Positions 5,173 through 28,811 of a stretch of 28,938 bases of DNA are shown one piece after another. Position numbers and translations under genes: made by a program. The stretch's first letter is position 1; each line of letters starts with the position of its first letter. Origin of the DNA: a virus. The notes below the pieces were generated by a model. The model worked only from the letters and a program-made list of their open reading frames with translations. It searched no databases and was not told the origin of the DNA. The stretch is taken from the IMG/VR virus record IMGVR_UViG_3300046820_000607, positions 1 through 28,938 of that record, one strand, 5' to 3'.

Positions 5173-5583
5173 ATGGTTTATTTACTAAAAAATACAGCGT
5201 CTCAGCTCCTCTTTTTGCAAATTCAAGAAGGGGAGCTTTTGCTGTCTAATTTCTATACCGATTACTTACTCGAATTAACTAACGAGCAGACACTAGAAAA
5301 ACTTTACTGTATACCTACGGTAGTAACAACAAACGAGCGTTATACGAGTATTCAAGTTGGCACTAACGCCAACACACCTTTAGCGGGCAGTTTATTAATT
5401 AACTACCCTGCAAGATTTAGCTTTAAGGTATACGGTCAAAATAGCAGCACTAATTTAGACCCTACCGACGCCTCAGTAGTAGGCATGATAGAGAAAGGCT
5501 ATTTAATGGTCCAAGATATTACTACTCCTTATTTTACTGACCCCAATTTAACTATTCCTACCGATGTCGCATACAACGGATAA
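5173..5583 (+). CDS. Hypothetical virion-associated protein, 136 aa
   Basis: Not recognised. The 136 residues look like a compact beta-sheet protein (LLEL, SIQVGT, FSFKVYGQNS), with no signal peptide, Cys motif or coiled coil. It stands between the putative tail tube gene and the portal fusion. A TAAATTTG sequence at 5150-5157 resembles a -7 promoter element but has no matching TTTG 19 bases upstream. Its last 20 bases overlap an upstream in-frame ATG of the portal gene, although I place the portal start after its stop. A head-tail or tail accessory role is inferred from position. Confidence 0.6.
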   Translation: MVYLLKNTASQLLFLQIQEGELLLSNFYTDYLLELTNEQTLEKLYCIPTVVTTNERYTSIQVGTNANTPLAGSLLINYPARFSFKVYGQNSSTNLDPTDASVVGMIEKGYLMVQDITTPYFTDPNLTIPTDVAYNG

Positions 5584-5590
5584 AAATATA

Positions 5591-7834
5591 ATGGCCGAGC
5601 CTATGGTAATTAACATGGCAGGCATAGCTTTGCAAGAGGCTGTTGAGAGAGAAACTCCTACCGGTTGGGTGAGTTATGGGGAAAGTAATTTATTCCCTAA
5701 TTATTTAATAGAATTATACAACGACTCGCCCGTACATAGATCGCTATCGATGTCTATAGCATTTACGATTGCAGGCAAGGAGTTTAAGAGCAGTTTACCC
5801 ATTGCGACGAGAGAAATTAACCGCCTTAAATTTGACGAAATAAGACACTGCACCGCGTTAGATTTAAAACTACATGGTGGCTTTTTTTGGGAGGTAATAT
5901 GGAGCGTAGACAGGTCTACAATAGCTCGCGTTAATCATTTGCCATACGAAAACTGCAGACTAGCAGTAACTAACGACGAGGATATAATACCTGGCGTTTA
6001 CTATTCTAAAGATTGGGCAGACTTCCGTAAAAAGAAAAATAAGCCTAGTTTTATACCAATGTTTAACCCTGCTACCAATGCAGAGGAACCTAGCCAAGTT
6101 TTATTTATTTCAGTAATGACGCCAGGCAGTGCTTACTACCCTAAGCCTGACTATTACGGAGCATTAAATTATATTGAATGCACGCGAGAAATTAGCGAGT
6201 TTTACCGTGCTTTCTTATCCAATGGAATGGCGCCTAGCTACATGCTGCATTTTAATAATGGCGTTCCTGATCCTGAGGAACAAATAGCCATTCGTAGACA
6301 GTGGGATAAAATGATAGGGGCGCAGAAAGCGGGTAAGGTTGTACTTACTTTTAATGAGAATGCCGACCGTACGCCTAAGTTAGATTTAGTACCCATGACC
6401 GACGCGGATAAGCAATGGGAGACTTTAACCGACCAAAGTAGAGAAATGATAATGAACGCGCACCGCGTTACCTCACCTCTTATTTTTGGCATTCGAGACA
6501 GTGGCGGACTGGGTAGTAATTCTGATGAAATAAAGCAAGCCTTTAGATTATTCGATAAACAAGTAATTGAGCCTTATCAAAAAATGATAAGCGACGCGGT
6601 AGAGGAGATTTTAAGAGGTATTGGTATAGTTGCAAAAATAGAGCTAGAGGGAAATGATGTTTTTGGTGAAGATGCAACCGCACAAACTGAAGGTGCACCG
6701 AGCGCAGCTGTTGCTCCTGCCGATATGCAAAACGTTTTAAATATTGCAGCGCAGTACATGCAGGGCGCAATTACCGCAGGTCAGGCTAAGCAAATTTTAA
6801 AGCTTGCGTTTCCTTCGCTTACCGATATTCAAATAGACACCTTACTAGGAGCTGAGCCTACACAGCTCGAAAAAAAAAAGATAGAACTTGCAATACCGGA
6901 GAGTTTTGCACCCACTAAAGAAATGGCCGCAGAGGCTGAGCTAGGTTTAAAATGGCGTGAGGAATACGGAAGGGGTGGTACCGAGGTCGGCGTAGCAAGG
7001 GCTAGAGATATTTCGAACCTTAGAAACTTATCTTACGACACGGTTAAAAGAATGAATAGCTACTTTTCAAGACATGAGGTAGATAAAGAGGCTACAGGTT
7101 GGAACCAAGGCGAGGAAGGTTTCCCAACTGCGGGCCGTATAGCGTGGCAGTTATGGGGTGGAGAGCCAGGTAAGGAATGGGCCGAGCGAATTATAACACG
7201 CTATCAAAATGAGGAGCTTGTAGATATTCCCGAATTCACCGAGGAAGCCGAGGACCAATGGATTGAATTTTTAAAAGACAAGGGCGAAATAGTCGATTTA
7301 AATGAGTGGGAACTTATCGAAGCTGAGCCTGTAGATATGGCTAGCGTTAGAAGTTACAGCCGACCCGATGAAAAAAGTATAATGGATTCAGGGTTATATA
7401 AAATTCGTTATAAATACAGCACTAATTTAAGCGCTAACTCTCGCAAATTTTGCCGCCAAATGGTAACGGCTAGCAAGGCAGGTTATGTATACCGTTATGA
7501 AGATTTGGACTATAACGGCTTCGAGGCTAATAGCATGAGCCAAAGTGGTGAAAATTCACAATTCGCGCCTAGTGGTATGGATAGTTACTCCGTATGGTTT
7601 TTTAAAGGCGGTTGTTACTGTGCCCATACATGGACCCGCCAAGTTTATTTTAGAAAAAGAGAAAAGGGGAAATTCCTAGCCGACAAAGGTTTAGAAAATT
7701 CCGACGAAATTAGCGTAGCTAAAGCCATTCGCGCAGGTATGCCCTTAAAAGATATAGCGGCTAACTTTGCTATGGCTAATACAGCGCCTAGAGATATGCC
7801 AAATAGAGGTTCTATTAAACACGCAAATAAATAA
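5591..7834 (+). CDS. Portal protein fused to C-terminal head domains, 747 aa
   Basis: Residues 1 to about 425 look like a portal, the dodecameric ring through which DNA enters the head: an N-terminal segment with PNYLIELYNDSPVHRSLSMS, FISVMTPGSAYYPKPDYYGA, and later MNAHRVTSPLIFGI and FDKQVIEPYQKMI. At 461-475 an RGGTEVGVARARDI motif begins a second domain (to about 540, with GRIAWQLWGG). Residues 600-747 form a third, with CRQMVTASKAG, GGCYCAHTW and a basic tail, resembling head proteins in XkdF-type phages. A run of ten A's (6870-6879) at codons 427-430 lies at the first domain border. I chose ATG 5591, with an A-rich leader after the previous stop, over ATG 5564. Portal proteins are usually 400-550 residues, so this is a fusion. 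Confidence 0.8.
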   Translation: MAEPMVINMAGIALQEAVERETPTGWVSYGESNLFPNYLIELYNDSPVHRSLSMSIAFTIAGKEFKSSLPIATREINRLKFDEIRHCTALDLKLHGGFFWEVIWSVDRSTIARVNHLPYENCRLAVTNDEDIIPGVYYSKDWADFRKKKNKPSFIPMFNPATNAEEPSQVLFISVMTPGSAYYPKPDYYGALNYIECTREISEFYRAFLSNGMAPSYMLHFNNGVPDPEEQIAIRRQWDKMIGAQKAGKVVLTFNENADRTPKLDLVPMTDADKQWETLTDQSREMIMNAHRVTSPLIFGIRDSGGLGSNSDEIKQAFRLFDKQVIEPYQKMISDAVEEILRGIGIVAKIELEGNDVFGEDATAQTEGAPSAAVAPADMQNVLNIAAQYMQGAITAGQAKQILKLAFPSLTDIQIDTLLGAEPTQLEKKKIELAIPESFAPTKEMAAEAELGLKWREEYGRGGTEVGVARARDISNLRNLSYDTVKRMNSYFSRHEVDKEATGWNQGEEGFPTAGRIAWQLWGGEPGKEWAERIITRYQNEELVDIPEFTEEAEDQWIEFLKDKGEIVDLNEWELIEAEPVDMASVRSYSRPDEKSIMDSGLYKIRYKYSTNLSANSRKFCRQMVTASKAGYVYRYEDLDYNGFEANSMSQSGENSQFAPSGMDSYSVWFFKGGCYCAHTWTRQVYFRKREKGKFLADKGLENSDEISVAKAIRAGMPLKDIAANFAMANTAPRDMPNRGSIKHANK
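6870..6918 (+). other. Candidate -1 frameshift site (A AAA AAG) inside the portal fusion
   Basis: Ten A's followed by G place A AAA AAG in the correct phase for -1 slippage (zero-frame codons AAA 6875-6877 and AAG 6878-6880), the same heptamer as in E. coli dnaX. After a slip the reading continues for 12 codons to TAA at 6916-6918 and would give a 442-residue free portal. A 6-bp hairpin (GAGCTG 6849-6854 with CAGCTC 6863-6868) lies just upstream. Only inspection supports this. Confidence 0.4.
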
Positions 7835-23858: not shown

Positions 23859-24451
23859 GTATACTAAGCGAGTTATTTAAGAACGGCCATTTGCTCGAAG
23901 TTATGATGGACTTTAGCGAGGAAGTAGTACGCCAGGCTCGCTCGAATATTCGTATTAACCAAACTAAATACGGGCGTAAAAGAAAAGCCAATACAACGGG
24001 CAGATTAGCTGCCTCTTTGAAATTCGATATTAACCCCGACACGGGAGCGGTTAAGTTTGTATCTAGCGAACCATACGCGGGAGTAATTGAGTTTGGAGCG
24101 CGAGGTAGTGAGGAGTTAGCCAAGGGAATTACTAAGCTTTCGCCTGGTCCATTGCGACCGCCTGCGGATAGTATACTAGATTGGATGAACAAAAAGAAAA
24201 TACGTTTAAGAGAGAAAACAGCTACCGGTAGTAAGTTCGCTAAAGAGACACCTTCAAAAAGAAAATCAGTCGCTTACGCCATTGCACAAAGTATTCATAA
24301 AAAAGGTTTCTCGCCTCTCGAGTATTTTCAAGACGCATATAAAGAAACGCTACCCGATTACAGCGGAAAAATAGCAACGGCAGCGGCTGAAGCTATAGGC
24401 TTAACCATACTTTCACAAAATAGAACTTTAAATAATATAAAACCTAAGTAA
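23855..24451 (+). CDS. HK97 gp10-like tail completion/head-tail joining protein, 198 aa
   Basis: The pattern LAASLKFDINPDTGAVKFVS (51-70), then EPYAGVIEFGARG (72-84) and PLRPPADSILDWM matches HK97 gp10-type proteins, where a strand-turn ending in (V/I)EFGT/A and a following P-x-x-P region are typical. The N-terminal 45 residues are helical and basic, and the C-terminal part is helical (SVAYAIAQSIHKKGF). It would sit at the head-tail interface. It overlaps both neighbours by a few bases, so the whole tail block is one transcript. Confidence 0.65.
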   Translation: MSILSELFKNGHLLEVMMDFSEEVVRQARSNIRINQTKYGRKRKANTTGRLAASLKFDINPDTGAVKFVSSEPYAGVIEFGARGSEELAKGITKLSPGPLRPPADSILDWMNKKKIRLREKTATGSKFAKETPSKRKSVAYAIAQSIHKKGFSPLEYFQDAYKETLPDYSGKIATAAAEAIGLTILSQNRTLNNIKPK

Positions 24452-25752
24452 TGGCAATTACCCTAGTAGATAGACCCTACAAATTTACAGCACTAAAACA
24501 AAAGTTAATCTTTACAGCTACAAGCTCGCAAGTCGGACAGCCTGGCTTTAGATTCGTGGCGCAAGTTAGCGCTACAGTCGACGGTAATACAACTATGCAA
24601 ACCGTATACATACAGCCTAATTTAAATGGCGCAATGGTTTTAGATGTTTACCCGATTGTAAAAGATTTTATAGATTTATCGGTAACAGATGCTGCCGTGC
24701 CTAACTTATTTATGCAGGACACAGTATACTATACGCCTTACACCGACCTACACAATATAGTAGAAGTTACTGTAAATCTATACGACGGCTACGAGGTATT
24801 AGGAGTATTTACTGTAAATCCTTTAAGCCTTCCCGTAGTTAGAACTCGCTTAAGCTTAATAAATGCAGCCTTCCAAATTTCACAGGGTTACAACCCTGAC
24901 CCTAATTTAATTTTTGCTTTAAGCGGTCCGACAATGTACCAAATGACCGACCTTACTCCTGATGTATACGACTTAAGTACGGAAATTAGTACATATTCAC
25001 TAGGCGCGAATACAATAGGAATAAGAGCTAGATTTAATAGCGACTATGGAGTTATGACAATTCCAATAGATGACGGCACAAGACTTACAGCTAATTTAAT
25101 AGACGAAATACAGGTAATACAATTTAACAGCGCGGGCGCACCTATTCAAACGGATAGTATACCCATTGCACCACAAGAGGGCTATATAGTGCATGCCGGT
25201 ATATACCCCGCTAATGTCAGCGGTTCGTTAGGCTATGCTGCAAATATGCACCATTACCTAGTTAACTTTTTATACTTAGGTAGTGCTACTGCTCGCTCCA
25301 TTGCTTTTTTTCAGGCAGAAGATGAATGCCGTTTTGATACATACCGATTAGCCTGGATAAACTCACGCGGAGGGTGGGATTTTTGGAACTTTACTAAACG
25401 CAGTGAGCAAAACTACTCAATAGAGAGAAAGCGCTTTAGAAAAGTAATAGGCAACTATGCAACGGCTAACGCTAACTTTAGTTTTAATACATACGATAGA
25501 GGACTAACTGAGCGGGGCGCATTCGTAGAAAAAATGCTAACCGTTAGCACTGACTTTTTAAGCGAGGCGCAGTTTGAATTTTTAAAGGGTTTAAGTTATT
25601 CCGACAGCGTTTATATAATTGACGACAGCGGAATACCAACACCTGTAAATGTAGAAAATACAAACTTCGCAGCTATTAAAAATAGAAGCTACATAAAAGA
25701 GGGAACGCAATTAACAATTAACTTAAAATATAGTCAGGAGTATAACGTATGA
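24451..25752 (+). CDS. Tail-tip structural protein, 433 aa
   Basis: A beta-rich protein: MAITLVDRPYKFTALKQKLI, then LNGAMVLDVYPIVKDFIDLS, and a C-terminal part (WDFWNFTKRSEQNYSIERKR, NYATANANFSFNTYDRGLTE, SYIKEGTQLTINLKYSQEYN). It lacks signal peptide, coiled coils and enzyme motifs. Together with the 1020-residue neighbour it looks like the distal-tail/baseplate pair common in Bacteroidota siphophages. Its end overlaps the next gene by four bases. Confidence 0.6.
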   Translation: MAITLVDRPYKFTALKQKLIFTATSSQVGQPGFRFVAQVSATVDGNTTMQTVYIQPNLNGAMVLDVYPIVKDFIDLSVTDAAVPNLFMQDTVYYTPYTDLHNIVEVTVNLYDGYEVLGVFTVNPLSLPVVRTRLSLINAAFQISQGYNPDPNLIFALSGPTMYQMTDLTPDVYDLSTEISTYSLGANTIGIRARFNSDYGVMTIPIDDGTRLTANLIDEIQVIQFNSAGAPIQTDSIPIAPQEGYIVHAGIYPANVSGSLGYAANMHHYLVNFLYLGSATARSIAFFQAEDECRFDTYRLAWINSRGGWDFWNFTKRSEQNYSIERKRFRKVIGNYATANANFSFNTYDRGLTERGAFVEKMLTVSTDFLSEAQFEFLKGLSYSDSVYIIDDSGIPTPVNVENTNFAAIKNRSYIKEGTQLTINLKYSQEYNV

Positions 25753-28700
25753 GGCCCACAGTAATTTTAACAGTAACTTATGGAGGGCAGACTGCCGTAC
25801 TGGATTTATACGAAAACGAAAGTATAAGCTTTTCAAATGCGTTTACCGATATTACCGAGTTTAAGGCTCGCGGTGGTTTTAGCCGTGAGTTTAGAATACC
25901 GGCAACTAAAACGAATGTTGAGTTTTTTGGAGCGCAGCATAAAGTGGGTTTATTTTCTACTATTGATATTAAAAAGAAAATTGATGCAGTTTTAACTGTA
26001 GATACTTTACCCATTTCGGAAGGGCACATACAGTTTAAAAGGGCCATTACTCAGCACGGTAAATTATTCGAGTATGAAATAGCTTTCTTTTCTGAGGTAG
26101 TAGACGCGGCTAGATCTATAGGTGACAAAATGATAAGCGAGCTAGATTATTCTAGTTTAGCGCATTCGAGTACTTGGGATAACGTAGTAGATGCAAACGA
26201 CGGAATTATATTAGGCGGCAACGTTTGTTATACATTAACCGACCGCGGGCAAAATTGGACCGAGAGCAACGCTACCGGTAGCCGTCGTATTTTCAGCTCA
26301 GTAAACCCAATTTACACTAACGAGCTTACAGTAGCAGTAAAAACAAAATGGCTACTAGATAAGATATTTAGCGAGGCGGGTTTCACCTGGAGCGGCACTA
26401 CCATAGAGGCGGAGCTCGAAAATATGTGGTACCCGTTTATAAATAGTAATTTAACGCTAGGAACTGTAACCACCGACGCCTCACGATTTAGCGCAAAGTT
26501 TGCAGCCAATACTAATTTTACTATAGACCAACTGCAGGCAGACGGTAGCTACATTAAACAGCTTACAGGCTTTACTGAAACCTTCGACCCTAGTAACAGC
26601 TTCGCTACCGATACCTATACGGCTAACGGGAATTTTACGGTAAACTTCAATGTTAATTTTGAGGTAACCGTGAACACGGCAGGCTTTCCTACATGGCAGC
26701 CGCATAACTATGATTTTTATTTACAACGAACTAGAGGGGGAGTAGATACAATTATAAACCTAGTATATGGGCAGAATTTTAGTACTGTTCAATATGTTTA
26801 TGATAATAGCGGTCAAGATTACGGCCAAGTAACAATTAACCCATTTCTAGTAAATATTGCAGCTACTAACTTAAATGTAGAGGCGGGAGACCAATTAAAA
26901 GTATTCGTAAGAGCGCACCAAACTAGCAGCCAAGATATAACTATTAGCGCTAATGGTAGCATAGGTATAAGTTATGTTAGTGGCGAACTTCAAGCGCAGC
27001 CTGTAGGCTTTAAAAATAACTCACCCGAGCAGAAGCAAATAGAGTTCGTTAATGATATTCTAAAATTATTTAATGCTGTAATAGTACCCGATACAACTAT
27101 ACCCAACTCAGTTAATATTATTCCTATAGTGGAATTTATAGCAAGTGGTACGGATTACGATTGGACTACAAAACTAGACGAGGATAAAGATATTTTACTG
27201 CGACCTGCTACGGATCTACAACGTAGATTTTTAAGGTGGAGCTATAAAGAGCAGAGCGACCGATTAAACGCATATTATAAAAACGGAGCGCAACGGGTAT
27301 ACGGTGAGCTTAGGTTAAATAACCCTGAGAGCGACTTTGCCGTAGGAGATTACAAAGTAGAATTAACCTTTGGTCCTACTCCATGTAACGCAATACCGAA
27401 TACTACTTATGTAATTCCTAAATTCATAAACGATAGTGGGCAATTCGTAAACCCAGGGCCTCGCATTCTATACCGCAGACCATACGCAGAAAGCGCTAGC
27501 GTGCAGGTTTATAATGAGGGAACGAATGCAAGCCAATTAACAGTTATACCATTACTTAACCACTATAAAAATGTACCTACTGACGTAGATACTGACGACC
27601 TAAATTTTGGGCAAGAAATACCTCTATTTAACATTGAAGCCATGCCGTTAAAAACGATGTGGGACAAATACTGGAGGGAGTATATAGCCGAGATTTATGA
27701 TAGTGAGCAGCGTATAATGGAGGCTTACTTTGCGCTCGGAGTAACCGATGTTTTTAACTTAAAGTTTAACGATAAAATTTTTGTTAAAGATTCACTCTGG
27801 CGCGTGCTCGAAGTTAGCGACTACGTTATAGGCGATTTGCAAAGCACCAAACTAACGTTAATTAGATTGCTCGATTTAGGCGCCCTTTGTACATATACTC
27901 CATACCAAATTAACGCGAGCACGGGAGCTGTAACTTTCTTAGACCAAGCAGGTGGAACTAGCACAGGTAACCAAACGTGCTGTGAATATTACGGCTACAC
28001 TTGGGACACCTCGAAAAATAAATGTTATGCTACTTTACCCTATTTAACCGACAAGCCTATAATGAGCTCCCCAGGTAGCATAGGCGAGAGTAATTTAGTT
28101 ATAGCCAACGGCACGCAAAAAAGCACTACAGGTTTAGGCACCGTTGCAGGTGGCGATGTGGAGCTAGGAAACGAGAGACTTTTAGTAAATGGTAGCGGGC
28201 ATGCCATTGCACCTAATAACCGTAACTCGGTAGTAAGCGGTTCGGATAACATGCTAAAGACTAACTTACCTAGCTCGGCAGTATTCGGTAAAAATGCCTT
28301 TGGTGAATTACGAGGCGTTCATTTTGGCGGTGGTAGTTGGTGGGATATTACAAGCGACACAGCCGCACCGGTTCCAGGCAGAACTCAACACGGTTTTATA
28401 ACATTAATGGGTGAAGCTCCGCTAACAGGAACGGTAGATATTGACGTAACTATAGACGGGGCAGAAGCTTTATTTATAAACATGCCTACCGAGACTACAT
28501 GGCTAGTTAAGGCTTACGTTTCTTTTGTGGAGTACGATTACGGGGTAGGAGATTTTACGGGAGTGGTCGCAGGTGGCGAGTGGAACGGTTTATTTTTTAA
28601 AGACAAAACTACCCATACGGTTAGTAAAATGATAATGCAAGCTAGACACGGGAATGTTTTACCACCTGGAGATATTGACTGCAATGTAGCTGTAGTAGGT

Positions 28701-28811
28701 GGCGAAATAGTACCGACTGTAACAATTAAAAGAACGTCAGGTTATACAGGTCTAGTTAGCGTAGTGATGCAGTATACACAAACCAAATTTCAACGAACCC
28801 CAATATTATAA
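25749..28811 (+). CDS. Large tail-tip/hub protein with fibre-like C terminus, 1020 aa
   Basis: The largest protein of the phage. Residues 1-130 (ESISFSNAFTDITEFKARGG, FSREFRIPATKTNVEFFGAQ) resemble the N-terminal domain of tail-tip hub proteins. The middle 350-700 is beta-rich. At about 733-755 lies a Cys cluster (QTCCEYYGYTWDTSKNKCYA). Residues about 770-855 show a Gly/Asn/Ser-rich repeat-like stretch (GSGHAIAPNNRNSVVSGSDN, FGKNAFGELRGVHFGG) that recalls YadA-like trimeric beta-rolls. A final beta domain follows. It therefore probably combines hub and receptor-binding fibre in one chain. Confidence 0.65.
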   Translation: MRPTVILTVTYGGQTAVLDLYENESISFSNAFTDITEFKARGGFSREFRIPATKTNVEFFGAQHKVGLFSTIDIKKKIDAVLTVDTLPISEGHIQFKRAITQHGKLFEYEIAFFSEVVDAARSIGDKMISELDYSSLAHSSTWDNVVDANDGIILGGNVCYTLTDRGQNWTESNATGSRRIFSSVNPIYTNELTVAVKTKWLLDKIFSEAGFTWSGTTIEAELENMWYPFINSNLTLGTVTTDASRFSAKFAANTNFTIDQLQADGSYIKQLTGFTETFDPSNSFATDTYTANGNFTVNFNVNFEVTVNTAGFPTWQPHNYDFYLQRTRGGVDTIINLVYGQNFSTVQYVYDNSGQDYGQVTINPFLVNIAATNLNVEAGDQLKVFVRAHQTSSQDITISANGSIGISYVSGELQAQPVGFKNNSPEQKQIEFVNDILKLFNAVIVPDTTIPNSVNIIPIVEFIASGTDYDWTTKLDEDKDILLRPATDLQRRFLRWSYKEQSDRLNAYYKNGAQRVYGELRLNNPESDFAVGDYKVELTFGPTPCNAIPNTTYVIPKFINDSGQFVNPGPRILYRRPYAESASVQVYNEGTNASQLTVIPLLNHYKNVPTDVDTDDLNFGQEIPLFNIEAMPLKTMWDKYWREYIAEIYDSEQRIMEAYFALGVTDVFNLKFNDKIFVKDSLWRVLEVSDYVIGDLQSTKLTLIRLLDLGALCTYTPYQINASTGAVTFLDQAGGTSTGNQTCCEYYGYTWDTSKNKCYATLPYLTDKPIMSSPGSIGESNLVIANGTQKSTTGLGTVAGGDVELGNERLLVNGSGHAIAPNNRNSVVSGSDNMLKTNLPSSAVFGKNAFGELRGVHFGGGSWWDITSDTAAPVPGRTQHGFITLMGEAPLTGTVDIDVTIDGAEALFINMPTETTWLVKAYVSFVEYDYGVGDFTGVVAGGEWNGLFFKDKTTHTVSKMIMQARHGNVLPPGDIDCNVAVVGGEIVPTVTIKRTSGYTGLVSVVMQYTQTKFQRTPIL

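Follow-up and report, generated by a model that had tools for sequence, protein, structure and literature searches.

The portal gene of the virus studied here carries an uninterrupted run of ten A's followed by G (A10-G) at the point where the portal module ends and additional head domains begin. We consider it very likely that this tract serves functional recoding, and the comparison with related sequences makes it probable that it is a programmed transcriptional slippage site of the kind described for Thermus dnaX. RNA polymerase would sometimes add or lose A's at the tract: unslipped (A10) transcripts would give a 747-residue protein of portal, cassette and C-terminal domain, A11 transcripts would reach a stop 12 codons on and yield a 442-residue portal with the tail DRTCNTGEFCTH, and A9 transcripts would stop immediately, leaving a portal of ~430 residues that ends in ...EKKR. 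A single gene could in this way supply free portal subunits as well as portal subunits bearing a C-terminal head domain. Both products would then enter the virion, presumably side by side in a single ring of 12 subunits whose proportions would follow from how often slippage occurs. As far as can be read from the sequences, the tract is conserved, stops lie nearby, and the same tract is found elsewhere with a fused domain in the -1 frame.

In the window (the whole stretch of DNA that was analyzed, a 28.9-kb IMG/VR virus record), the A-run lies at 6870-6879, with G at 6880, inside a frame of 747 codons from ATG 5591 (756 from ATG 5564), ~317 codons of which lie beyond A10-G (Table 1). The upstream part matches Phage_portal PF04860 over residues 83-367 (E=5e-11; 42.7 bits vs a gathering score of 39.1) as well as the PHROGs portal families phrog_33693/11226. 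The first-pass annotation had read ten A's and a G phased for -1 slippage, GAA AAA AAA AAG, and this holds: the heptamer A AAA AAG (6874-6880) lies in -1 phase and follows the pattern X XXY YYZ, while the A10 in the coding strand also qualifies as a run of at least nine uninterrupted A's. Its reading of the two other frames is likewise confirmed, as the -1 frame encodes DRTCNTGEFCTH before TAA at 6916-6918 (430+12 = 442 residues, the predicted short portal ending ...EKKKDRTCNTGEFCTH) and the +1 frame is closed by TAG directly after the tract.

Table 1. Coordinates of the portal fusion gene in the window and of slip-site features in other loci (L numbers)
Feature	Position	Strand	Remarks
Portal fusion gene, 747 aa	5591..7834	+	open frame; in-frame ATG also at 5564 (756 aa)
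Portal module, ~aa 1-375	5591..6715	+	PF04860, TIGR01540 below cut-off, PHROGs portal; 58-73% identity to relatives
Variable linker	6716..6869	+	length differs among relatives
6-bp hairpin	6849..6868	+	-9.3 kcal/mol; not conserved, probably chance
Slippage tract A10-G, GAA AAA AAA AAG	6870..6880	+	invariant in 58/58 relatives, codon-invariant
-1 frame tail DRTCNTGEFCTH and TAA stop	6880..6918	+	predicted product of A11 transcripts or of a -1 ribosomal slip
+1 frame TAG stop	6882..6884	+	predicted product of A9 transcripts
Optional cassette domain, ~aa 438-545	6881..7213	+	absent from L010-L012, L016 and most of the family; phrog_2859 E=4.9e-27
Constant C-terminal domain, ~aa 547-747	7229..7831	+	in every relative complete at this end; long product only
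T TTT TTC sites	L296:1800-1806, L298:1878-1884, L299:1773-1779, L383:2913-2919, L384:2049-2055		
C-terminal domains behind MuF	L380:1639-4203; L296:1788-3110; L299:1626-3089; L384:2037-3341		

The window by itself is no proof. It holds one ten-A run where dinucleotide shuffles lead one to expect 1.30 (at least one being present in 50/100 shuffles), and 28 occurrences of AAAAAAG against 20.7 expected, so that chance cannot be rejected for the A-run there and the evidence for the tract has to be comparative. Relatives were therefore collected by a protein search of IMG/VR with peptide queries, the tract not being used as a query. This retrieved 61 sequences, with identities in the best segments ranging from 91-98% down to 58%; a protein search of genome contigs with the portal fusion protein found no relative. 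All 58 relatives that span the site share an A10-G of exactly this length and codon phase, a count that overstates the number of events since related sequences are not independent. Conservation of this extent nevertheless rejects chance alone for the A-run, whose significance comes only through it.

The surroundings of the tract are far more variable. Its position ranges from ORF residue 385 to 471, the preceding linker differs in length and sequence, and several kinds of sequence follow on the 3' side. Most relatives continue with GATTAATTTAG or GACTAATTTAG, with the -1 stop one codon and the +1 stop two codons downstream, and the I/T change between these variants keeps the stop intact. In the clade of the window +1 is closed immediately and 12 codons precede the -1 stop, whose position is shared by L002-L005; the relatives that lack the cassette have GTGTGA after the tract. 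Both non-zero frames thus close soon after the run in the window as well as in the main clade. In the 50 complete genes a single codon is kept at 8/232 invariant degenerate residues and at 0/13 invariant lysine columns, lysine being encoded by AAA (56%) or AAG (44%) and glutamate by GAA in 45% of cases; within the window clade, no part of the gene stays codon-invariant for longer than TQLEKKK. The run is therefore conserved between these homologues beyond protein constraint, and is absent in a marine clade. An alignment of homologues had been proposed in the first-pass annotation as a check, and its outcome, with A-run and phase kept and flanking codons varying, agrees with the expectation stated there.

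The same two proteins could be made in translation if ribosomes shifted into -1 on A AAA AAG in the manner of E. coli dnaX, the mechanism first put forward for this gene. The heptamer is exactly in phase, and wherever the fused ORF of such a gene lies in another frame, this is always -1. The latter does not decide the mechanism, because extra A's in a transcript give -1 too. A -1 ribosomal slip needs only seven bases in phase, and yet the full ten A's persist; among relatives and dnaX genes, both the codon phase of the tract and the base after it (T, C or G) vary; and the +1 frames are closed as well. The latter point can be put in numbers. In 21 dnaX genes the -1 frame closes after a mean of 1.0 codon (null 12.9) and the +1 frame after 3.9 codons (null 16.1), and in 16 virion genes, which are not all mutually unrelated and whose -1 stop was a requirement of the search, the +1 frame closes after a mean of 3.4 codons vs 12.6 (P below 5e-5). 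Such early +1 closure fits transcripts that gain and lose A's, and not ribosomes that only slip back. Stimulatory elements are also lacking in most members: a Shine-Dalgarno-like element shortly upstream is absent in 21/23 relatives tested (the window has AGGAG ~23 nt upstream of the heptamer), and no stable conserved downstream stem was found (mean z -0.95, range -4.2 to 0.9; 0.47 and 0.02 for the window), so that a consistent downstream stimulator is rejected. The 6-bp hairpin noted upstream in the first-pass annotation does exist, with arms GAGCTG (6849-6854) and CAGCTC (6863-6868) and a predicted fold of -9.3 kcal/mol, but its 5' arm is missing in the near relatives L002 and L012, and it is rejected as a stimulator for want of conservation. 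Taken together, the retention of ten A's, the variation in phase and next base, the early closure of both frames and the lack of stimulators favor slippage by RNA polymerase, and the in-phase heptamer is what stands of the E. coli-type proposal, a ribosomal mechanism being rather unlikely here. Some observations speak against the slippage reading nonetheless: the A10 also holds the in-phase ribosomal heptamer, fused ORFs outside the zero frame are always in -1, the -1 frame of the window clade runs on for 12 codons before its stop, and the wider marine/Nonlabens clade is fused without such a tract.

Readings without any recoding are less probable still. The lysine-rich linker could be merely a tolerant domain border or a seam for module exchange, with no decoding role for the A-run: the modules before and after the tract vary, this genome has many A-rich runs and tract-free fusions exist. 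We consider this very unlikely in view of the synonymous invariance of the run in 58/58 relatives, the presence of A10 in unrelated genes too, the prompt stops in both other frames, and the ORFs for the XkdF-associated HAD-like domain and the Peternella MuF described below, which make no sense without a change of frame. A homopolymer within a virion gene might also act as a phase-variable DNA tract, replication slippage toggling the fusion on and off; as neither A9 nor A11 was ever seen in the 58 separately assembled relatives or in 8 members of the Peternella family, this can be given hardly any credence.

The closest precedents for a programmed transcriptional slippage site are found in dnaX. 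In Thermus thermophilus, a sense-strand A-tract (A9) ends the N-terminal module of tau/gamma, the full-length product is read in the zero frame, stops lie close by in both other frames and the short product is a truncation, with transcriptional slippage giving ~50% short product (PMC1088944, PMC5009743). The window shares this layout and differs in having A10, a phage virion gene, and a 12-codon -1 tail, and in being known here from sequence. For dnaX genes carrying ten A's, two-ORF dnaX included, transcriptional realignment had been deduced in a previous survey (PMC3711429). In a set of 32 Bacteroidia dnaX loci, one of them picked by its tract, we found A10 in 23 and A9 in three, at the gamma/tau border, in all three codon phases and with T, C or G as the next base. 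Here again there are exactly ten A's, with the fusion in the zero frame or in -1 and the other frames closed early (cf. PMC3711429), in genes for a cellular clamp loader without sequence kinship to the portal gene. In four of them (L398, L416, L422, L426) gamma ends in the zero frame just after A10 and tau lies in -1; an automatic pipeline would be likely to report such a tau as absent or as split. Compared with E. coli dnaX, which likewise has A AAA AAG in -1 phase and a short product that arises from the slip, the window family has a longer invariant run, no Shine-Dalgarno-like stimulator in most members and no conserved downstream stem.

Recoding of virion genes is already established for tail chaperones and major capsid proteins. 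Known cases are the lambda-type tail assembly chaperones and the major head protein of phage A2, where one gene likewise gives a short and an extended structural protein; the genes here encode a portal (and a protease) and would be recoded, probably by transcription. Searches for the same tract in other phage genes were of two kinds: pattern scans for A10-GAYTAA(YYTA), which impose tract and -1 stop and so prove breadth but not frequency, and homology-based sets, to which all frequency statements are confined. The scans located the A10 element, with its phase unchanged, where domains meet in unrelated virion genes. These comprise Portal_Mu + Phage_Mu_F fusions (L189, L196, L201), Phage_portal + Phage_Mu_F fusions (L169, L180, and L170 with a sub-threshold Mu_F match), XkdF protease + cassette (L126, L166), an unidentified protein + XkdF (L195), and tail-chaperone-like genes ending in the A10-GACTAA element (L167, L184); the Saprospiraceae dnaX L204 carries it as well. 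Three further genes (L172, L179, L185) resemble the tail-chaperone-like ones and have the tract in another phase. The DUF935-MuF protein of L196, used as a query against viral contigs, retrieved only itself.

A mirror case is provided by the portal family of Winogradskyella phage Peternella_1, which was retrieved by homology and has exactly A10 in 8/8 members, which are split four and four between two codon phases. Peternella_1 is available in culture on Winogradskyella sp. HaHa_3_26. Within 0-5 codons of A10 the portal frame is closed, and MuF continues in -1 for 424-435 codons. As in the window, the portal ends at A10 and a partner head domain lies beyond; unlike in the window, the portal is of Mu type, MuF is in -1, two genes are annotated and the fusion, predicted to span KKKSKKSGLNNIAAH, would be the slipped product. 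The record calls MuF from a GTG 43 codons into its frame, and the main text of the paper describing Peternella_1 mentions no frameshift. In L380, a gut relative, both portal and MuF are read in a single frame, and A10 marks the boundary between them. Elizabethkingia, Bacteroides and gut phages have a different sequence between portal and MuF: T TTT TTC lies in phase before an early zero-frame stop, with MuF in -1. It lends some weight to ribosomal frameshifting at such borders, and probably represents a ribosomal solution reached independently. In Elizabethkingia phage TCUEAP3, MuF lacks an ATG for 104 codons and is annotated from an ATG 105 codons in, and in the Flavobacterium phages FPSV-S1 and lotta8-2 portal and MuF are separate genes. 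Beyond the slip site, weak CdiA_C or clear LPD3 (polyvalent protein) matches were seen C-terminal of MuF; slippage would also set the virion dose of domains of these types.

Among XkdF proteases (homology set), A10 is present near the protease end in 11/80 loci; the idea of a universal XkdF feature is rejected on this count, and A10 is here a feature of a clade. Six of these loci (L214-L218, L230) have the cassette in frame after A10, with -1 closed at once (GACTAA or GATTGA), and five have an immediate zero-frame stop and an ORF for a HAD-like domain of ~100 residues in -1, opening at the tract. This ORF has no start codon before residue 48, and none at all in L277; its HAD assignment is weak (phrog nucleotidase E=6e-4). 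The HAD-like domain (FDYDSTLSTAKGTE) was seen only in -1 behind the XkdF prohead protease, at ~2079-2390 of L261, L269, L271, L274 and L277.

A more complicated picture emerges from the wider portal family. An alignment-based search gave 80 more distant loci, in 75 of which the C-terminal domain could be scored; in 75/75 it is in the same ORF as the portal. Five of these loci (L307-L311, ~30% identical to the window) have A10, two as A10-GACTGA and three as A10-TCTTGA, the latter having a changed heptamer and yet retaining A10 and a prompt -1 stop. In the remaining 70, among them Nonlabens P12024, the full-length fusion lacks the ten-A tract, and a few have short A7 runs elsewhere. Fusions without the A-run had been named in the first-pass annotation as evidence that would count against recoding; they do exist at this distance, and none is found within the clade, where A10 is present in 58/58. 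It follows that the fusion does not require the tract, which is a clade-specific addition and dispensable for fusion, and not every member of the portal family needs the short product. Tract-free fusions outside the clade offer no explanation, however, for the strict conservation inside it. In the tree, A10 occurs in two groups with groups lacking it between them, indicating that it was either gained twice or lost several times.

The part beyond the tract, taken in the first-pass annotation for one fused head domain, consists of two modules: an optional cassette of ~105 residues (~aa 438-545) and a constant C-terminal domain. The cassette is missing from four relatives (L010, L011, L012, L016) whose portal part matches that of the window at 93-98% identity; there, A10-G is followed by a short linker and then the C-terminal part. 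Phages 94% identical to each other differ in its presence. The cassette is kin to stretches in head proteins of Roseobacter, Vibrio and haloarchaeal viruses, with a Halogranum virus prohead protease among its relatives, which makes it a widely mobile domain of virion genes. No relative with a complete C-terminal end lacks the last ~200 residues. These have no Pfam match, and no Phage_Mu_F match was obtained in any of 34 members; against MuF domains hhalign gave a probability of 0.2, with no profile similarity, and two AlphaFold models (pLDDT 38 and 52), neither of them usable, gave a best Foldseek E of 1.0. Identity with MuF or the SPP1 gp7 minor head protein is thus unsupported by Pfam, hhalign or structure.

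The overall proposal made for this gene, that a slippery tract ends the portal module and allows a short portal of normal length beside a long fusion, is supported by these data. Many free and few fusion subunits are not implied, since it is the unslipped transcripts that encode the fusion; rare slippage would leave fusions in the majority, opposite to what that guess assumed. Recoding of a portal gene was not found in the open-access literature searched, and neither was a description of an A10 element common to phages and to the dnaX of their host phylum, in two mirror-image layouts. The phages appear to infect the phylum whose dnaX genes carry A10. We raise, as an evenly balanced proposition, that Bacteroidota phages use the A10 element of their host phylum (dnaX gamma/tau border) as a general and transferable dosage device for virion fusions. 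It would cover portal-MuF, portal-C-terminal domain, protease-cassette and protease-HAD combinations, and in the 12-fold portal ring would give a set minority or majority of subunits bearing the extra head domain. If true, this provides a simple route to an asymmetric portal ring from one gene and explains why portal and MuF are fused, split or overlapping in Bacteroidota phages, and it means that gene callers miss or truncate such proteins (e.g., MuF of Peternella_1 and TCUEAP3). The choice between ribosome and RNA polymerase is directly testable through A counts in RNA reads.

Two minor observations concern gene and genome structure. The portal ORF at L170:2-2284 starts with a LAGLIDADG/intein-like stretch (Pfam E=5.6e-7), pointing to an intein in a portal gene. 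In the window, a tape-measure-like gene lies at the left end (258-2180) and other tail-like genes lie at the right end (24451-28811), an arrangement suggesting that the record represents a near-complete genome in circularly permuted form.
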